In this document: one piece after another, positions 20,815 through 58,800 of the stretch
Position numbering within the stretch: position 1 is the first letter of the stretch
Layout: each line of letters begins with the position of its first letter
Position numbers and translations under genes: made by a program
The notes under the pieces: generated by a model
The model's input: only the letters and a program-made list of their open reading frames with translations
Databases searched by the model: none
Told to the model about the DNA's origin: nothing
From: Burkholderia sp. USMB20
GTDB lineage: Bacteria > Pseudomonadota > Gammaproteobacteria > Burkholderiales > Burkholderiaceae
DNA: 64,000 nucleotides
Direction: 5' to 3'
Assembly (NCBI RefSeq): GCF_000949135.2
Contig: NZ_JTAN02000003.1
Coordinates: 372,001-436,000 of the forward strand

Positions 20815-20852
20815 GCGCGCAGCAAGGCAACAGGCAGTCAAGATGGAAAAGG

Positions 20853-20886
20853 GCGCGAACCGGCCGCGAAATCGGCCGGTTCGCGC
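20853..20886. terminator. perfect hairpin downstream of leuB
   Basis: Arms 20853-20866 and 20873-20886 pair perfectly over 14 bp around a six-base loop. No T-tract follows, so it may protect the leu mRNA 3' end rather than terminate by itself. It sits just before the promoter candidate for the asd leader. Confidence 0.5.
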
Positions 20887-20897
20887 GCGGTTGGCCG

Positions 20898-20926
20898 TTG
20901 TGCGGGCAACCGGCTTTGTGTAGACT
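20898..20926 (+). promoter_or_regulatory. candidate promoter of the asd leader
   Basis: TTGTGC (20898-20903) and TAGACT (20921-20926) are spaced by 17 bases. A start seven bases after the -10 would fall at 20933, the A of the ATG of the leader peptide, which would make that transcript leaderless. The match to consensus is moderate. Confidence 0.4.
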
Positions 20927-20932
20927 CGAACG

Positions 20933-21052
20933 ATGGCGCTGATTTCCCTGATCTCCCCGGTCCTGAAACTCCACGGCAACACTGCCCGTGCGGGTGCGCG
21001 CGCCATCGTCATCACGAAAACCATTACCACGAAAACGATCATTAAACGCTGA
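20933..21052 (+). CDS. candidate 39-aa leader peptide upstream of asd (Thr/Ile/Lys-rich)
   Basis: A short frame from ATG 20933 to TGA 21052. It begins MALISLISPVLKLHG and ends AIVITKTITTKTIIKR. In these last 16 residues five are Thr, five Ile and three Lys, exactly end products of the aspartate family made through aspartate-semialdehyde dehydrogenase, whose gene starts 84 bases later. This is the composition expected of an attenuation leader (compare ThrL). No Shine-Dalgarno sequence is present, but the predicted promoter would start the RNA at the ATG. Hairpins follow at 21075-21094. I know of no described leader of this type, so the call is inference. Confidence 0.55.
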   Translation: MALISLISPVLKLHGNTARAGARAIVITKTITTKTIIKR

Positions 21053-21074
21053 TCGCCGTCGTGCCCGCCTGTTT

Positions 21075-21094
21075 CCCCGCGCGGTCACGCGGGG
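21075..21094 (+). promoter_or_regulatory. hairpin between the leader peptide and asd
   Basis: CCCCGCG (21075-21081) pairs with CGCGGGG (21088-21094), and flanking CCCGCC (21064-21069) can pair with GGCGGG further out (around 21103-21108). It lies where an attenuator would be expected, but lacks a U-run, so any effect would be through Rho or on asd translation. Confidence 0.4.
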
Positions 21095-21136
21095 ACGGAA
21101 ATGGCGGGGAAGCTCCATTCAAGCAAAGGGTTAGTC

Positions 21137-22258
21137 ATGAACGTAGGTCTCGTAGGTTGGCGCGGCATGGTCGGCAGCGTGCTGATGCAGCGCATGCAGG
21201 AAGAAGGTGATTTCGACCTGATCGAACCGGTGTTTTTCAGCACCAGCAACACGGGCGGCAAGGCGCCGTCGTTCGCGAAAAACGAGACTACGCTCAAGGA
21301 CGCGACCAACGTCGACGAGCTGAAGAAGTGCGACGTGATCATCACGTGCCAGGGCGGCGACTACACGAACGACGTGTTCCCGAAGCTGCGCGCGGCCGGC
21401 TGGAACGGCTACTGGATCGATGCGGCCTCGTCGCTGCGGATGAACGACGACGCGGTCATCATCCTCGATCCGGTCAACCTCGACGTGATCAAGGACGCGC
21501 TCGTCAAGGGCACGAAGAACTTCGTCGGCGGCAACTGCACGGTCAGCCTGATGCTGATGGCGCTCGGCGGCCTGTTCCGCGAGAACCTCGTCGACTGGAT
21601 GACGGCGATGACCTACCAGGCCGCATCGGGCGCGGGCGCGCAGAACATGCGTGAACTGCTGTCGCAGATGGGCACGCTGCACGGTTCGGTGCAGGAACAA
21701 CTCGCCGATCCGGCTTCCGCGATTCTCGACATCGACCGCCGCGTGCTCGCGACGATGAACAGCGACGCGATGCCGACGAGCCACTTCGGCGTGCCGCTCG
21801 CCGGCTCGCTGATCCCGTGGATCGACAAGGATTTCGGCAACGGGATGTCGAAGGAAGAGTGGAAGGGCGGCGCGGAAACCAACAAGATCCTCGGCAAGCC
21901 GGCCATGGGCGAGCCGGGCTCGATCCCGGTCGACGGCCTGTGCGTGCGGATCGGCGCGATGCGCTGCCACTCGCAGGCGCTGACGATCAAGCTGAAGAAG
22001 GACGTCCCGCTCGACGAAATCAACGGCATCCTCGCGTCGGCGAACGACTGGGTGAAGGTCGTGCCGAACGAGCGCGAAGCGTCGATGCGCGACCTGTCGC
22101 CGGCGAAGATCACCGGCACGCTGACGGTGCCGGTCGGTCGCCTGCGCAAGCTCGCGATGGGTGGCGAATACCTGTCGGCGTTCACGGTCGGCGACCAGCT
22201 GCTGTGGGGCGCGGCCGAGCCGCTGCGCCGCATGCTGCGCATCCTGCTCGACAAGTAA
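21137..22258 (+). CDS. asd: aspartate-semialdehyde dehydrogenase
   Basis: NADPH-dependent enzyme (373 aa) making aspartate-4-semialdehyde, the branch point to lysine/diaminopimelate, threonine, isoleucine and methionine. [20 protein letters not shown] holds the nucleotide-binding motif. C134 in [11 protein letters not shown] is the catalytic cysteine and H278 in [10 protein letters not shown] the partner histidine. The length and motifs are those of the Gram-negative type. ATG 21137 is preceded by AAAGGG; an in-frame start at 21101 would include the upstream leader region. A textbook terminator follows at 22295. Confidence 0.97.
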
Positions 22259-22336: not shown

Positions 22337-22821
22337 GTCCGGCGTCAGGTCTTGTGCGGACCGCCCATTGCGCGAAAGTCCCGAACCGCTCGCGCGGCCG
22401 GGGCTTTTCCTGCATCGCCATCCTTTGGCACGAGGAATCGATGCGACGCGAAGTACAAGGAGGAGCCGAATTCGTTCCGGAACCCGATGCCGTCGTCCGG
22501 TTTTTCATCGATTGATGATCCTCTTTTGACAAAACCGGCGCGTGCGATTCAGTGCCCGGATCGGCGATGCCTTCGCGCGATTCGCGCACCGACGGCCCGA
22601 CGCGGTCGGCCGTAAGGTCGCGGCGCAGGCGCGGACGGCCGCATCCGCAGGCGACGAATTCGGCCGGAACGCGATCGTGTGAAGTAAACTATGCGGTTAC
22701 GACGCGCAGAGCCGCCCAAAGCGTCGCGTTCTGCGCGACGCTTTTGCATTTCTGCGGCGACTTTATTGACGCTTCCCTACGCGAATCCGAGCCGCGCCCG
22801 CGCGCGGCGATAGAGCCTACG
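22337..22821. other. 485-base gap before fimV with one perfect hairpin
   Basis: No credible gene was seen. A perfect 11-bp hairpin with a TTCTG loop occupies 22718-22744 and ends in TTTT (22742-22745), like a small intrinsic terminator. It lies about 75 bases before the fimV start, so it could end an unseen small RNA or act as an attenuator. A GTAAAC at 22684-22689 fits the pattern GTWWAC. Confidence 0.5.
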
Positions 22822-24957
22822 ATGTCCCGAATTTCCTTGTTTCCGCGTCAGTCCCGTCTGGCGCGCGCCGTGCGTGGCGCGCTGGCGATCCTGGCGCTCG
22901 GCGCGGCCGCTTCGGCCTGGGCGGCCGGTTCCGGCGAGCTGCCGGCGTCCGCCGCCGGCGGTGCCGCGCCGCTCAACGTGACGGTCCAGCCGGGCCAATC
23001 GTTGAACGACCTCGCGAAAGCCGCGACGCAATCGCACGATCCGGGCGTGCTCGCGCGCGCCGGCCGCGCGCTGTTCGACGCCAATCCGCAGGCGTTCATG
23101 AAGCACGACCCGAGCCGCCTGAAAGTCGGCGCGACGCTGACGGTGCCGGCGCTCGATGCGACCGGCGCGGCGCTCGTGCCGGCTGCTGCGTCGGGGGCAT
23201 CGGCTGCGTCCGCGCCGGTTGCCGTGTCGAGCACGGCGGCGGTCACGCAGCATGGCGCGTCGGCGCCGCATCCTGGGTCGGCCGTGCAAACCGCGCCGGC
23301 CGTATCGGCCGCGCATACGGCGCCGGTCAGCGGGGCGAGCGTCACGGTCGCAGCCGGGGCAGCGGCAGGCGCGTCGGCTTCGAGCGGCGCGTCCGCCGCG
23401 CACGGCGCGTCGACGGTCGAATCCGTCCAGTCGCCAGCGGCTGCGGCCGGCGCAAGCGGGCCGCACGTGTGGAACGGCGCGATCCAGTCCGCACCGTCGT
23501 CCGCCAGCGAGGCCGTGACGCAGTCCGGACCGGGCGGTGCGGCTCAAGGGATGCACGAACCGTCTGCGGCAGCGCCCGTCGCGGGTGCGTCGCAGCCGCG
23601 GCCGTCGAGCCTGCAGCAATTGCTCGCGCTGAAGAACCGCGTGCTGATGGAACTGCAGAAGCACGGGATCGGGAAGCCGGCCGCCACGAACAACGTTGCA
23701 CCGGCGCCGGCGCCCGCTGCGCCGCGTCCCGCTGCGAACGGCGCGAACGGCACGAACGGCACGAACGGCACGAACGGCACGAACGGCACGAACGGCACGA
23801 ACGGCACGAATGATGCGGCGGCGTCAGCTGCCGCGTCGTCGTCGGCTGCGAGCGAAGCGGCGTCCGGCGTGGCCGCGAGTGCGGTGCAGCCGGCATCGGC
23901 GCCCGTGCAGCCGGCCGTGCCGGCGGCGACCGCTGTGCCTGCACGCGGTTCGGAACAGATCGACTGGCGTCCGGCCGCAGCGGCCGGCGCCGCCGTGGTC
24001 GTGCTGGCGGCCGGTTTTGCGTGGCGCAAGCGCCGGAAAGCGCGGCCGACCGACGAAACCGCACCGGCATCCGGCGGGACGGCTGTTGCCGACGACGATG
24101 CATCTTCGTCGCCGGTCGCATTCACCGAGCCAGTGCCGCCGATTCTCCCCGAGACGCCGTTGGCCCGCGACGCGGCCGCCGATCTGAGTCTGGTCACGGC
24201 CGCCGCCGCAGCGGCGGAGACGTTCGAGACGCACGAACCCGAAATCCCGTCGCCGTCGGAAACGGCGAAGCCGCACGACGTTCAGGCGGAAGCATCGTCC
24301 GCGCACGTCGCACCCGACAGCGACGCAACTCCGGCCGCGCACGACGAGAAGCCTGTCGCGGAACCGGCCGCGGACGAGCCGCTCGTCACGCCCGCCGCAC
24401 CTGCGACGAACGACGCCCAGCACGCAGCGCTGATGCAGAACGCGATCAGCGCGCTCAACAGCCTCGACATGCCGCTGCCGCCGCGTACGGCCGATGAGCC
24501 GCCCGCACGCGAAGGGCAAGCCGAAGGTGCGCAAACCGCAACTAACGGTCAATCCGCCACACACCCGCCAGTCGGCGCGACCGATCCGTCCCCGGCACAT
24601 CCGGCCGACCACGACGACGAGTTCGACTGGGATCCAGACGCGGCAACGCCTGCCTCTCACGCGGGCGGTGCCGCCGCGCCGTCGTCGCTGCCGCCGCTCG
24701 GCGTCGCGCAGTTCGGCGCGCTGAAGCTGGATTTCGATCTCGACCTGCCGTCCGCGCCGGGTGCCGTGCTGCCCGCGCTGACGCCGGAGGAACTCGCCCG
24801 CATCGCCCGCAACAAGCTGGATCTCGCGTCGGAGTACGTGCAACTGGGCGATCTGTCCGGCGCGCGCACGCTGCTGCAGGAAGTGGTCGACGCGAACGAC
24901 GCCGCCACGCGCGACGATGCGCGTGCGCTGCTCGCGAAACTCGCGGAAGAGGCGTGA
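22822..24957 (+). CDS. fimV: FimV-like pilus/polar hub protein
   Basis: A 711-aa inner-membrane peptidoglycan-binding protein. ATG 22822 gives a clear signal peptide ([18 protein letters not shown] style). A LysM-like domain follows at about 50-115 ([14 protein letters not shown] to [11 protein letters not shown]). A long Ala/Ser/Pro-rich periplasmic region contains a seven-fold NGT repeat (about 309-329). A single transmembrane helix lies near 395-410, followed by basic RKRRKARP. The cytoplasmic part is acidic and ends in the FimV C-terminal TPR-like domain [20 protein letters not shown]. FimV proteins organise polar type IV pili and c-di-GMP signalling. The stop overlaps the truA start. Confidence 0.88.
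23746..23808 (+). repeat. seven 9-bp tandem repeats (AACGGCACG) within fimV
   Basis: Seven perfect copies of AACGGCACG encode (Asn-Gly-Thr)7, preceded by a degenerate Asn-Gly-Ala copy at 23737-23745. The 9-base unit keeps the frame, so copy number can change without breaking the gene. Confidence 0.95.
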
Positions 24958-34741: not shown

Positions 34742-34779
34742 TGCCGGCGCACGCTTCGGATGAAGCGTGATAGGATGTG

Positions 34780-34845
34780 GCCTTGCGTCGATTTGATTCA
34801 GCTTGCGGACGCGGGGCGACTTCCCAAAACAGCTAAAGCGAAGGC
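34780..34845 (+). ncRNA. probable SAM-II riboswitch upstream of metZ
   Basis: GCGTC (34785-34789) pairs with GACGC (34808-34812) as P1. The loop begins GATTTGATTCAGCTTGC, close to the conserved GAUUU segment of SAM-II. Downstream AAAACAGCTAAAGCG (34826-34840) matches the conserved GCUAAA tail; GCTT at 34801-34804 can pair with AAGC at 34836-34839 as the pseudoknot. A small GGG/CCC hairpin is inserted after P1. The gene controlled makes homocysteine, fitting SAM sensing. The assignment is from recalled consensus; a covariance-model search would settle it. Confidence 0.72.
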
Positions 34846-34887
34846 CGGCGGCAGCCGGCCCGAGTCGATCGCTGTCGTACCGCACCG

Positions 34888-34925
34888 AAGCCCGCTGATG
34901 CCGACGCATAGCGGGCTTTTTGTTT
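34888..34925 (+). terminator. terminator between the SAM-II element and metZ (expression platform)
   Basis: AAGCCCGCT (34888-34896) pairs with AGCGGGCTT (34910-34918), followed by TTTTTGTTTT. It lies 43 bases after the aptamer and 77 bases before metZ, so SAM-dependent premature termination is the simplest reading. It could also simply terminate purF transcription. Confidence 0.8.
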
Positions 34926-55822: not shown

Positions 55823-58800
55823 ATGCTACAAATGTCCCGGCGCCAGTTCCTGAAGGTGACGGCCACGTCGCTTGCCGGATCGAGTCTTGCCCTGCTGGGC
55901 TTTTCTCCAACGGAAGCGCTCGCCGAGGTCCGACAGTACAAGCTGGCGCGCACAGTCGAAACGCGCAACACCTGTCCTTATTGTTCAGTGGGTTGCGGCA
56001 TCCTGATGTACAGCCTCGGTGACGGCGCGAAGAATGCGCAGCCGAGCATCATCCATATCGAAGGCGATCCCGACCATCCCGTCAATCGCGGCACGCTGTG
56101 CCCGAAGGGTGCGAGCCTGATCGATTTCATCCACAGCCCGAACCGCCTGACGCACCCCGAGTATCGTGCGCCCGGCTCGGACAAGTGGGAACCCATCTCT
56201 TGGAACGACGCGCTCGACCGGATCGCGAAGCTGATGAAGGCCGACCGCGACGCGAACTTCGTCGAGACGGCGGAAGACGGCGCGAAGGTCAACCGCTGGC
56301 TGACCACCGGCATGCTGGCTGCGTCGGCGGGCAGCAACGAAGTCGGTTACCTCACGCACAAGACTGTCCGCAGTCTGGGGATGCTCGCATTCGACAATCA
56401 GGCGCGTGTCTGACATGGCCCGACGGTGGCAGGTCTTGCCCCGACGTTTGGCCGTGGAGCGATGACGAACCATTGGGTCGACATCAAGAACGCGGACGTG
56501 ATTCTCGTGATGGGCGGCAATGCAGCCGAGGCCCATCCGTGCGGTTTCAAGTGGGTGACGGAGGCGAAGGCGCACCGCAAGGCGCGGCTGATCGTCGTCG
56601 ACCCGCGCTTCACGCGTACGGCCTCGGTGGCCGACTACTACGCGCCGATCCGCACCGGCACCGACATCGTCTTCCTGGGCGGTGTGATCAACTATCTGCT
56701 GACGAACGACAAGATCCAGCATGAGTACGTGAAGAACTACACGGACTTCTCGTTCATCGTGCGCGAGGATTTCGCGTTCAACGACGGCATCTATTCCGGC
56801 TACGACGCCGAGAAGCACGCGTATCCGGACAAATCGAGCTGGGACTACGAGCAGGGCGACGACGGCTTCGCGAAGGTCGACCCGACGCTGCAGCATCCGC
56901 GCTGCGTGTACAACCTGCTGAAGCAGCACTACGCGCGCTATACGCCGGACATGGTCCAGCAGACCTGCGGCACGCCGAAGGAGAAATTCCTGAAGGTGTG
57001 CGAGATGCTCGCGACGACGGCCGTGCCAGGCCGCGCCGGCACGATCCTGTACGCGCTCGGCTGGACCCACCATTCGGTCGGCGCGCAGATGATCCGCACC
57101 GGCGCGATGGTGCAGCTGCTGCTCGGCAACATCGGCATCGCCGGCGGCGGGATGAACGCGCTGCGCGGCCACTCGAACATCCAGGGCTTGACCGACCTCG
57201 GGCTGATGTCGAACCTGCTGCCGGGCTACATGACGCTGCCGATGCAGGCCGAGCAGGATTTCGACGCCTACATCAAGAAGCGCGTGCAGCTGCCGCTGCG
57301 GCCGAACCAGCTGAGCTACTGGAAGAACTACAAGGCGTTCCACGTCAGCTTCATGAAGTCGTGGTGGGGCGACGCCGCGACCGCCGAGAACAACTGGGCC
57401 TACGACTACCTGCCGAAGCTCGACAAGCAGTACGACCTGCTGCAGGCGATCGAACTGATGAATGCCGGCAAGATGAACGGCTACATCTGCCAGGGCTTCA
57501 ACCCGCTCGCGGCGGCGCCGTCGAAGGTGAAGACGGCGGCCGGCCTCGCGAAGCTGAAGTGGCTCGTGATCATGGATCCGCTCGCGACCGAGACGTCCGA
57601 GTTCTGGAAGCATCACGGCGACTACAACGACGTCGATGCGTCGAAGATCCAGACCGAGGTGTTCCGGCTGCCGACCACGTGCTTCGCGGAGGAAAACGGC
57701 TCGCTCGTCAGTTCGAGCCGCGTGCTGCAATGGCACTGGAAGGGCGCGGAGCCGCCGGGCGACGCGAAGAGCGACCTCGAGATCATGTCGGGGCTGTTCC
57801 TGCGCATGCGCAAGATGTACCAGGCGGACGGCGGCAAGTATCCGGACCCGATCGTGAACCTGACCTGGCCGTACGCGAACCCGGAAAGCCCGACGCCCGA
57901 AGAGCTCGCGATGGAGTTCAACGGCCGTGCGCTCGCCGACCTGCCCGACCCGAAGGATCCGGCCAAGACGCTCGTGAAGAAGGGCGAGCAGCTCGCCGCG
58001 TTCGCGCAGCTGAAGGACGACGGCACGACCGCGAGCGGCTGCTGGATCTTCTGCGGCGCCTGGACGCAGGCCGGCAACCAGATGGGGCGGCGCGACAACT
58101 CGGACCCGACCGGCATCGGCCAGACGCTGAACTGGGCGTGGGCCTGGCCGGCCAACCGGCGGATCCTGTACAACCGCGCATCGTGCGACGTCGCCGGCAA
58201 GCCGTTCGACCCGACCCGCAAGCTGATCGGCTGGAACGGCAGCGCGTGGAAGGGCCCCGACATTCCGGACTTCAAGGCGGACGAACCGCCCGAGAACGGG
58301 ATGGGGCCGTTCATCATGAACCCGGAAGGCGTCGCGCGCTTCTTCGCCCGCGCGGGGATGAACGAAGGTCCGTTCCCCGAGCACTACGAGCCGTTCGAGA
58401 CGCCGCTCGCGGCGAACCCGCTGCACCCTGACAACCCGCAGGCGCTGAACAACCCGGCTGCCCGCGTGTTCCCGGACGACCGGGCGTCGTTCGGCAAGGC
58501 ATCGGAGTTCCCGCACGTCGCGACGACGTACCGGCTGACCGAGCATTTCCACTACTGGACCAAGCATGCGCGGCTGAACTCGATCATCCAGCCCGAGCAA
58601 TTCGTCGAGATCGGCGAAGACCTCGCGAAGGAAGTCGGCGTCGCGCACGGCGATCGCGTGAAGGTGTCGTCCAAGCGCGGCTACATCGTCGCGGTCGCGC
58701 TCGTCACGAAGCGGATCAAGCCGCTGACGATCGAGGGCAAGAAGGTCCAGACGGTCGGCGTCCCGTTGCACTGGGGCTTCAAGGGTCTGACGAAGCCCGG

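Follow-up and report, generated by a model that had tools for sequence, protein, structure and literature searches.

A conserved, probably leaderless Thr/Ile/Lys-rich leader frame upstream of asd in Burkholderia and its relatives: a candidate attenuator that lacks a U-tract

A short open reading frame ending in a dense run of threonine, isoleucine and lysine codons directly precedes asd in a 64,000-nucleotide stretch of Burkholderia sp. USMB20 DNA (the window), and frames of the same kind recur at this place in related genera. Asd is the branch enzyme towards lysine, methionine, threonine, isoleucine and the cell-wall precursor diaminopimelate. Judged on the sequence features described below, ribosome-mediated attenuation of asd that would sense charged Thr, Ile and Lys tRNAs is the best explanation overall and, we consider, a probable one; that the leader senses these three amino acids and acts in cis is very likely. 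An earlier note on this DNA had proposed that ribosomes stalling on these codons tune asd through a structure lacking a U-tract. That reading is supported in part, as the leader family is conserved, apparently leaderless and free of a U-tract, but predicted folding does not display the expected switch. If the reading is true, a large part of a bacterial family with soil, plant and clinical members would control the Asd step by stalling on a leaderless message, which would offer a natural system for the joint study of leaderless initiation and non-intrinsic attenuation.

The leader frame (positions 20933-21052, + strand) comprises 39 codons followed by TGA, translates to MALISLISPVLKLHGNTARAGARAIVITKTITTKTIIKR and has a start codon that coincides with the predicted +1 of its transcript. 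The frame, its coordinates and the gap of 84 nt to the asd ATG (21137), as given in the earlier note, were all reproduced from the sequence. The gene on its 3' side, presumed to be the regulated one, was likewise confirmed as asd, encoding aspartate-semialdehyde dehydrogenase (21137-22258, + strand), from its open reading frame and the Pfam domains Semialdhyde_dh and Semialdhyde_dhC. Genes on the 5' side resemble leuC-leuD-leuB in the ORF list, and a Pfam scan bore out LeuC-type, LeuB-type and Asd-type proteins. A 14-bp inverted repeat in the gap between leuB and the leader (20853-20886, assigned to neither strand) has no T-run on the + strand and a T-rich tail on the - strand, and may mark where the leuB transcript ends. 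A Shine-Dalgarno-like AAAGGG, identified by sequence and by a scan for SD cores, precedes asd at 21125-21130 (+ strand). An in-frame upstream ATG (within 21101-21136) may lead a gene caller to begin asd 12 codons early, giving a 385-aa ORF from 21101; the conserved spacer and SD favour 21137 as the actual start. At the DNA level the window lies close to species of the Burkholderia cepacia complex: its asd shares 97-98% identity with that of L001 (B. latens), L005 and similar loci, and 90% of a 501-nt query was matched at 97.8% by a record of B. arboris. The leuB-asd region also occurs in a Burkholderia ambifaria record of 24.6 kb that is filed among plasmids (NZ_CP066766.1, hit H2).

The control-codon tail AIVITKTITTKTIIKR (21002-21049, + strand) contains Thr, Ile or Lys at 13 of its 16 residues, as had been counted before, and every Lys codon in it is AAA. 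With a combined Thr, Ile and Lys frequency of 0.146 in six neighbouring genes, the chance of at least 13 of 16 such residues at one given place is about 5e-9, a value that refers to a single position and is uncorrected for the number of places searched. Across 92 distinct tails the composition is 35% Thr, 26% Ile and 18% Lys, and codon choice is skewed: Lys is encoded by AAA in 214 of 229 cases (8 of 90 in the six neighbouring genes) and Ile by ATT in 188 of 329 (8 of 110). The AAA codons may partly act as an unstructured spacer. Met control codons are absent from the tail, although methionine is a pathway product too. In all 143 leaders at least 8 of the last 14 residues are Thr, Ile or Lys, where the rule for calling a leader was at least 7 of 14, and the stop codon is TGA in 100, TAG in 40 and TAA in 3.

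The earlier note had staked its proposal on conservation of the frame in related species, and this held. A search by Asd similarity, with no selection on the leader, gave 593 loci, of which the best 80 were kept; 52 of the 79 with upstream DNA have a frame with a Thr/Ile/Lys-rich tail at the same place. The leader was present in 48 of the first 49 loci, which belong to Burkholderia, Paraburkholderia, Caballeronia and Trinickia (L048 being the exception), in L055, L056 and the Cupriavidus locus L075, and more weakly in metagenome bin L068. The 27 loci without it are L048 and members of Limnobacter, Massilia, Pseudoduganella, Duganella, Noviherbaspirillum, Pandoraea, Zoogloea and unplaced bins. 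Here the picked frame resembles the end of leuB and lies 32-109 nt before asd (175 nt in L069), so there is little space for a leader. A covariance model of the leader-asd spacer (R1), which counts solely relatives of the present element because it was built from leader-bearing spacers, matched 269 of 398 family genomes and 9 of 25 genera, with one match per listed genome except for two in G159. At 93 of 94 R1-fetched loci asd was present; L140 stops at a contig end with its leader visible. R1 was also run on a sample of the order under stricter filters, which could miss weak relatives; it matched 6 of 399 genomes, and all of these belong to the nearest genome's family. Fifteen family genomes without an R1 match, chosen among those listed, all have asd, and no Thr/Ile/Lys tail was found upstream of it in the 11 R1-negative genomes with a located start (L141-L144, L146-L152). 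Taken together, 144 of 182 placed upstream regions carry the leader, in a set that is enriched as many loci were R1-fetched and some genomes are counted twice. In this analysis the leader was confined to one betaproteobacterial family and one unplaced Burkholderiales bin (L068).

Synonymous-biased substitution, also anticipated by the earlier note, proved weak. The dN/dS of the tail was 0.65 in the true frame and 1.39 and 0.61 in the shifted frames, and over whole leaders it was 0.68 compared to 0.86 and 0.82; as the true frame of the tail was not singled out, dN/dS was dropped as a proof of coding. Among 53 nonsynonymous changes in 64 neighbour pairs, 18 stayed within Thr, Ile and Lys (expected fraction 0.166), and these were set aside as proof because all 18 are Thr-Ile swaps, which transitions favour. 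Indecisive dN/dS values and the abundance of short open frames in the local GC-rich DNA are what could be said for an ordinary 5' untranslated region with a chance Thr/Ile/Lys-rich frame. Conservation contradicts such an origin, which we regard as extremely improbable: the same tail, box spacing and frame recur across genera, and this recurrence puts the frame beyond chance.

The earlier note had also described a promoter-like pair that would start the RNA at the ATG itself. Its elements are present, namely TTGTGC (20898-20903, + strand), a 17-bp spacer, the hexamer TAGACT (20921-20926) and an ATG 6 nt after the -10, but the -35-like element is weak and no -35-like block was found conserved among the leaders of relatives; a strict promoter scan of the window returned 0 sites. 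The -10 element fared better in a box scan of relatives. It lies in a block, TTGTGTAGACT (20916-20926, + strand; family TYGTGTANAYT), and 141 of 143 leaders have a TGTANANT-type box 80-230 nt 5' of their stop codon, where invariance of the box positions is mostly imposed by the search pattern and that of the T and G directly before the box is not. As a control, 484063 flanking bases contained 2 such boxes, and a box followed by an ATG 6-9 nt on occurred once. An in-frame ATG was located 6-9 nt past the -10 box in 139 of 143 leaders (at exactly 6 nt in 93); it is the first ATG after the box in 136 leaders and a later one in the remaining 3. An SD-like core, from a list picked after inspection of asd starts, preceded the leader ATG in 0 of 139 cases and the asd start in 139 of 139. 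Two exceptions (L121 and L125) have a variant box, TGTACACT, with the ATG 7 nt on. In two others (L123 and L138), both from genomes smaller than 4 Mb, an out-of-frame ATG comes first, which resembles decay, and the spacer RNA is still recognised. Because the ATG follows the -10 box by 6-9 nt and an SD is absent in 139 of 143, the leader peptide is probably leaderless across genera, in line with the earlier note. Leaderless messages are documented in the Burkholderia/Cupriavidus family, and a C. metallidurans study gives 4.67% of primary starts as leaderless (PMC7563307). The terms 'asd' and 'leader peptide' are absent from the main texts of that paper and of the Burkholderia study of leaderless messages.

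The N-terminal half of the peptide varies between distant genera, and the tail, the -10 box and the post-stop RNA are kept. This pattern bears on whether the peptide could instead be a small protein acting in trans, like peTrpL of Sinorhizobium meliloti, whose trpL is likewise reported to start at the 5' end of its transcript (PMC7298713). An N-terminal motif near ISxISSISxxHGKTAR, common to many Paraburkholderia loci, would suit such a role, but the N-terminus is unrelated in genera taken to be Cupriavidus-like (g3, which holds the L075 contig) and Ralstonia-like (g24), where the tail and RNA persist, and the leader peptide has no Pfam match. We therefore consider a trans-acting peptide very unlikely.

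Pairing potential in the RNA begins within the tail and continues towards asd, and the GC-rich pairing reported between the two in the earlier note is indeed present. Helix P1, from helix analysis, pairs the last control codons (5' arm CGATCA, 21036-21041, + strand) with the stop region (3' arm TGATCG, 21050-21055, + strand, which holds the stop codon). It scored better than when the 10 bases past the stop were shuffled in the same RNA (mean z -2.38; z < -1 in 90% of 61) and, to a modest degree, better than in synonymous recodings (mean z -1.05). On the alignment, where some rows are misaligned, P1 pairing showed no excess over shuffles. Both arms were changed together in L134, the stem was lengthened to 12 pairs in L125, and the Cupriavidus-like P1 is shifted yet kept. 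A DNA operator is an unlikely explanation of P1, since the distance between its arms ranges from about 3 to 8 nt and L134 changed both arms together. A classic 1:2 stem, pairing control codons further upstream with the linker past the stop, was ruled out, as no enrichment over synonymous shuffles was found for it (mean z 0.21).

Two further helices, located by alignment, follow the stop codon. P2' (GUGYCYGN with GCRGYCAC) is formed by GTGCCCGC (21061-21068, + strand) and GCGGTCAC (21081-21088, + strand), which have one conserved mismatch, and can pair in 99.2% of alignment cells, a value that 0 of 500 shuffles reached. One pair of P2' shows a compensatory change, C-G in 72 of 95 rows and U-A in 23 of 95, and all U-A rows are L075 or its genus g3; a count of one pair with a double change was reached by 500 of 500 shuffles, and the change, confined to the Cupriavidus-like genus, is probably one event. 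The 1x1 mismatch within P2' (columns 66/89 of alignment A2) is pyrimidine-pyrimidine in 106 of 108 and C-A in 2, and never a standard pair. P2' begins 8-12 nt past the leader stop (108 spacers), approximately the reach of a ribosome footprint with the stop codon in the A site. P3 (UUCCCCGC with GCGGGGAA) has its 5' arm TTCCCCGC (21073-21080, + strand) in the P2' loop and its 3' arm GCGGGGAA at 21104-21111 (+ strand; also recovered by folding). P3 is nearly invariant, with counted breaks that are mostly alignment shifts, and is beyond the reach of a covariation test because it hardly varies.

P2' and P3 cross, and their geometry would suit a pseudoknot: loop 1 measures 5 nt in 93 of the 108 spacers, loop 3 is 12-25 nt, and 0 nt separate the P3 5' arm from the P2' 3' arm. 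A crude pseudoknot energy beat the nested fold in 1 of 95 and came within 3 kcal/mol or better in 12 of 95; by this crude measure the nested fold is favoured in 94 of 95 and a pseudoknot ground state is doubtful, and the term crossing helices is used here for either arrangement. This geometry, together with post-stop RNA that is kept between genera with differing leader N-termini, raises the question of whether the structured spacer is itself the true element, i.e., a protein-binding RNA or an H-type pseudoknot aptamer, with the ORF secondary or mere ribosome traffic. Against this stand the tails, which in all 143 leaders match the products of the asd pathway, the unfavourable crude energy, and the Rfam results: no family matched in the leader at gathering score in a search of the whole window, and the best hit for 20830-21200, searched with E up to 5, had an E of 0.97. 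We consider this account improbable.

Folding with a simulated ribosome was used to probe how its position might affect the nested structures. The predicted probability of P3 was 0.43 without a ribosome, 0.69 with an upstream stall and 0.45 with the ribosome at the stop, and P2' averaged at most 0.06. P3 is thus predicted to be commoner when the ribosome stalls upstream than when it sits at the stop. The simple expectation was the opposite, and for this reason P3 cannot simply be called an OFF hairpin. The mutually exclusive stems sought by the earlier note find partial backing: P2' and P3 do cross, but they could co-form as a pseudoknot and P3 is predicted to respond in the opposite direction. 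The asd SD was predicted unpaired at a fraction of 0.42, 0.49 and 0.52 (no ribosome, upstream stall and at stop, respectively). This is no clear change, so simple translational occlusion of the SD appears disfavoured, and the translational version of the earlier proposal draws no support from folding. These values bear on translational attenuation, in which a stalled ribosome would refold the post-stop RNA and free the asd ribosome-binding site or standby region without premature termination. Crossing helices, a missing U-tract and a P3 that ends 20-28 nt 5' of the asd ATG (108 spacers), adjoining the 30S site, are all compatible with such control, but SD accessibility barely shifts and no conserved stem containing the asd SD was found; we hold it to be a possible but rather doubtful account of the whole.

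Readouts at the level of transcription were considered in the same manner. No terminator-like site with a T-run was found on the + strand of the window, and no U-run after P3 in the spacers of relatives. Because no U-run follows P3, an intrinsic terminator (GC stem plus U-run) was ruled out. The absence of a U-tract was claimed by the earlier note, and the sequence is compatible with attenuation that uses no intrinsic terminator. Frameshifting or read-through from the leader into asd was also ruled out, because the spacer between leader stop and asd (81-93 nt in 143 leaders) spans all three frames (79, 47 and 17 leaders).

C-rich, G-poor RNA is the typical loading region for Rho, and the leader and post-stop RNA have this composition. 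Mean C minus G over 118 leaders was 0.143 in the first 50 nt, 0.151 in the last 50 nt and 0.199 in the 40 nt past the stop, at the 98th, 98th and 99.7th percentile, respectively, of 9801 flanking 50-nt windows (mean -0.022, sd 0.079). Mean YC density was 0.212, 0.143 and 0.318 in the same segments (control 0.124), i.e., at the 97th, 74th and 100th percentile, so that the last 50 nt of the ORF are ordinary in this measure; control windows were 50 nt throughout, also for the 40-nt post-stop segment. In the first 50 nt, 78% of leaders exceeded the control 90th percentile for C minus G and 57% for YC. The C>G bias is compositional only. A C-rich, G-poor and YC-rich region, as found in Rho-dependent leader switches, is accordingly present, and because the leader and post-stop RNA looks like a Rho loading region, a Rho readout is our first choice. 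Given a cis-acting Thr/Ile/Lys-sensing leader, we put the prospects of Rho as roughly even, see a translational readout as one lesser possibility, and think some other readout rather unlikely.

We infer the following sequence of events for the favoured, Rho-coupled attenuation. Transcription would begin at the first base of the leader's ATG or no more than about 3 nt away, and ribosomes would initiate on the leaderless message. The leader they translate would have about 37-56 codons, with ~78% Thr/Ile/Lys among the last 14. When charged tRNA is plentiful, the ribosome would reach the stop codon and depart, and the vacated C-rich, G-poor leader and post-stop RNA would be open to Rho, with termination before or early in asd. 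When Thr, Ile or Lys is scarce, the ribosome would pause on the control codons and sit between Rho and RNA polymerase, holding P1 open, and asd would be transcribed. The crossing helices P2' and P3 would tune the switch, and either of them may belong to the ON state. Tentatively, the element may represent a leaderless Rho-coupled attenuator found across a bacterial family, in which one peptide senses Thr, Ile and Lys and a crossing-helix, pseudoknot-capable RNA positioned one ribosome edge past the stop serves as the switch in place of an intrinsic terminator.

To our knowledge, no asd attenuator and no attenuator built on Lys codons has been described. The E. coli thrABC leader (Rfam Thr_leader, RF00506) and ilv leaders are short ORFs with repeated codons for pathway products, placed before a biosynthetic gene and with the stop codon near alternative RNA stems, all of which the asd leader resembles. 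It differs in its lack of a U-tract terminator, its putative leaderless start, its presumed control of asd and its use of Lys besides Thr and Ile, and RF00506 gave no match in the whole window at gathering score or in 20830-21200 at E up to 5. Of the general hallmarks of amino acid attenuators, the sequence has a leader ORF with clustered pathway-product codons and has no intrinsic terminator before the first gene. Closer in the proposed readout are tnaC of E. coli and mgtL of Salmonella, Rho-dependent leader-peptide switches whose RNA is C-rich at the leader stop or beyond it, and in which ribosome position decides the outcome. The asd leader shares the C-rich RNA, and the signals differ, being free Trp or proline/magnesium in those systems and, as proposed, charged Thr/Ile/Lys tRNAs here. 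In repZ of IncI-type plasmids, a leader ORF ends just 5' of pseudoknot-forming RNA ahead of the controlled gene. The asd leader ORF likewise ends just 5' of pseudoknot-capable RNA, but here both the pseudoknot and any activation of translation by it would be hypothetical.

Precedents also exist for the start of the message. The trpL transcript of Sinorhizobium meliloti is reported to begin at the ATG (PMC7298713) and that of ilvBNC in Corynebacterium glutamicum one nucleotide from it (PMC11857589), and terminator hairpins are described for both. The asd leader is comparable to these in its predicted start at or near the ATG and its richness in pathway amino acids; it differs from them in having no recognisable U-run terminator hairpin and in belonging to another class or phylum, gene and set of codons. 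Among the matches listed in the open-access literature, no asd leader peptide or attenuator and no Lys-codon attenuator was found, and a term search of the main text of three surveys (PMC2965389, PMC11109978 and PMC3766115) returned no 'asd'.

Several other features were observed in the window. An 801-aa Ala-rich ORF (22552-24957) lies 3' of asd and contains a run of Asn-Gly-Thr repeats (NGTNGTNGT...). A strong Rfam match to the Burkholderia sRNA Bp2_287 (203.9 bits) was located at 34749-34921 on the - strand. At 56408-56466 (+ strand), an Rfam match to SECIS_3 (81.6 bits) marks a selenocysteine insertion element, and a selenoprotein gene may be present in this region.
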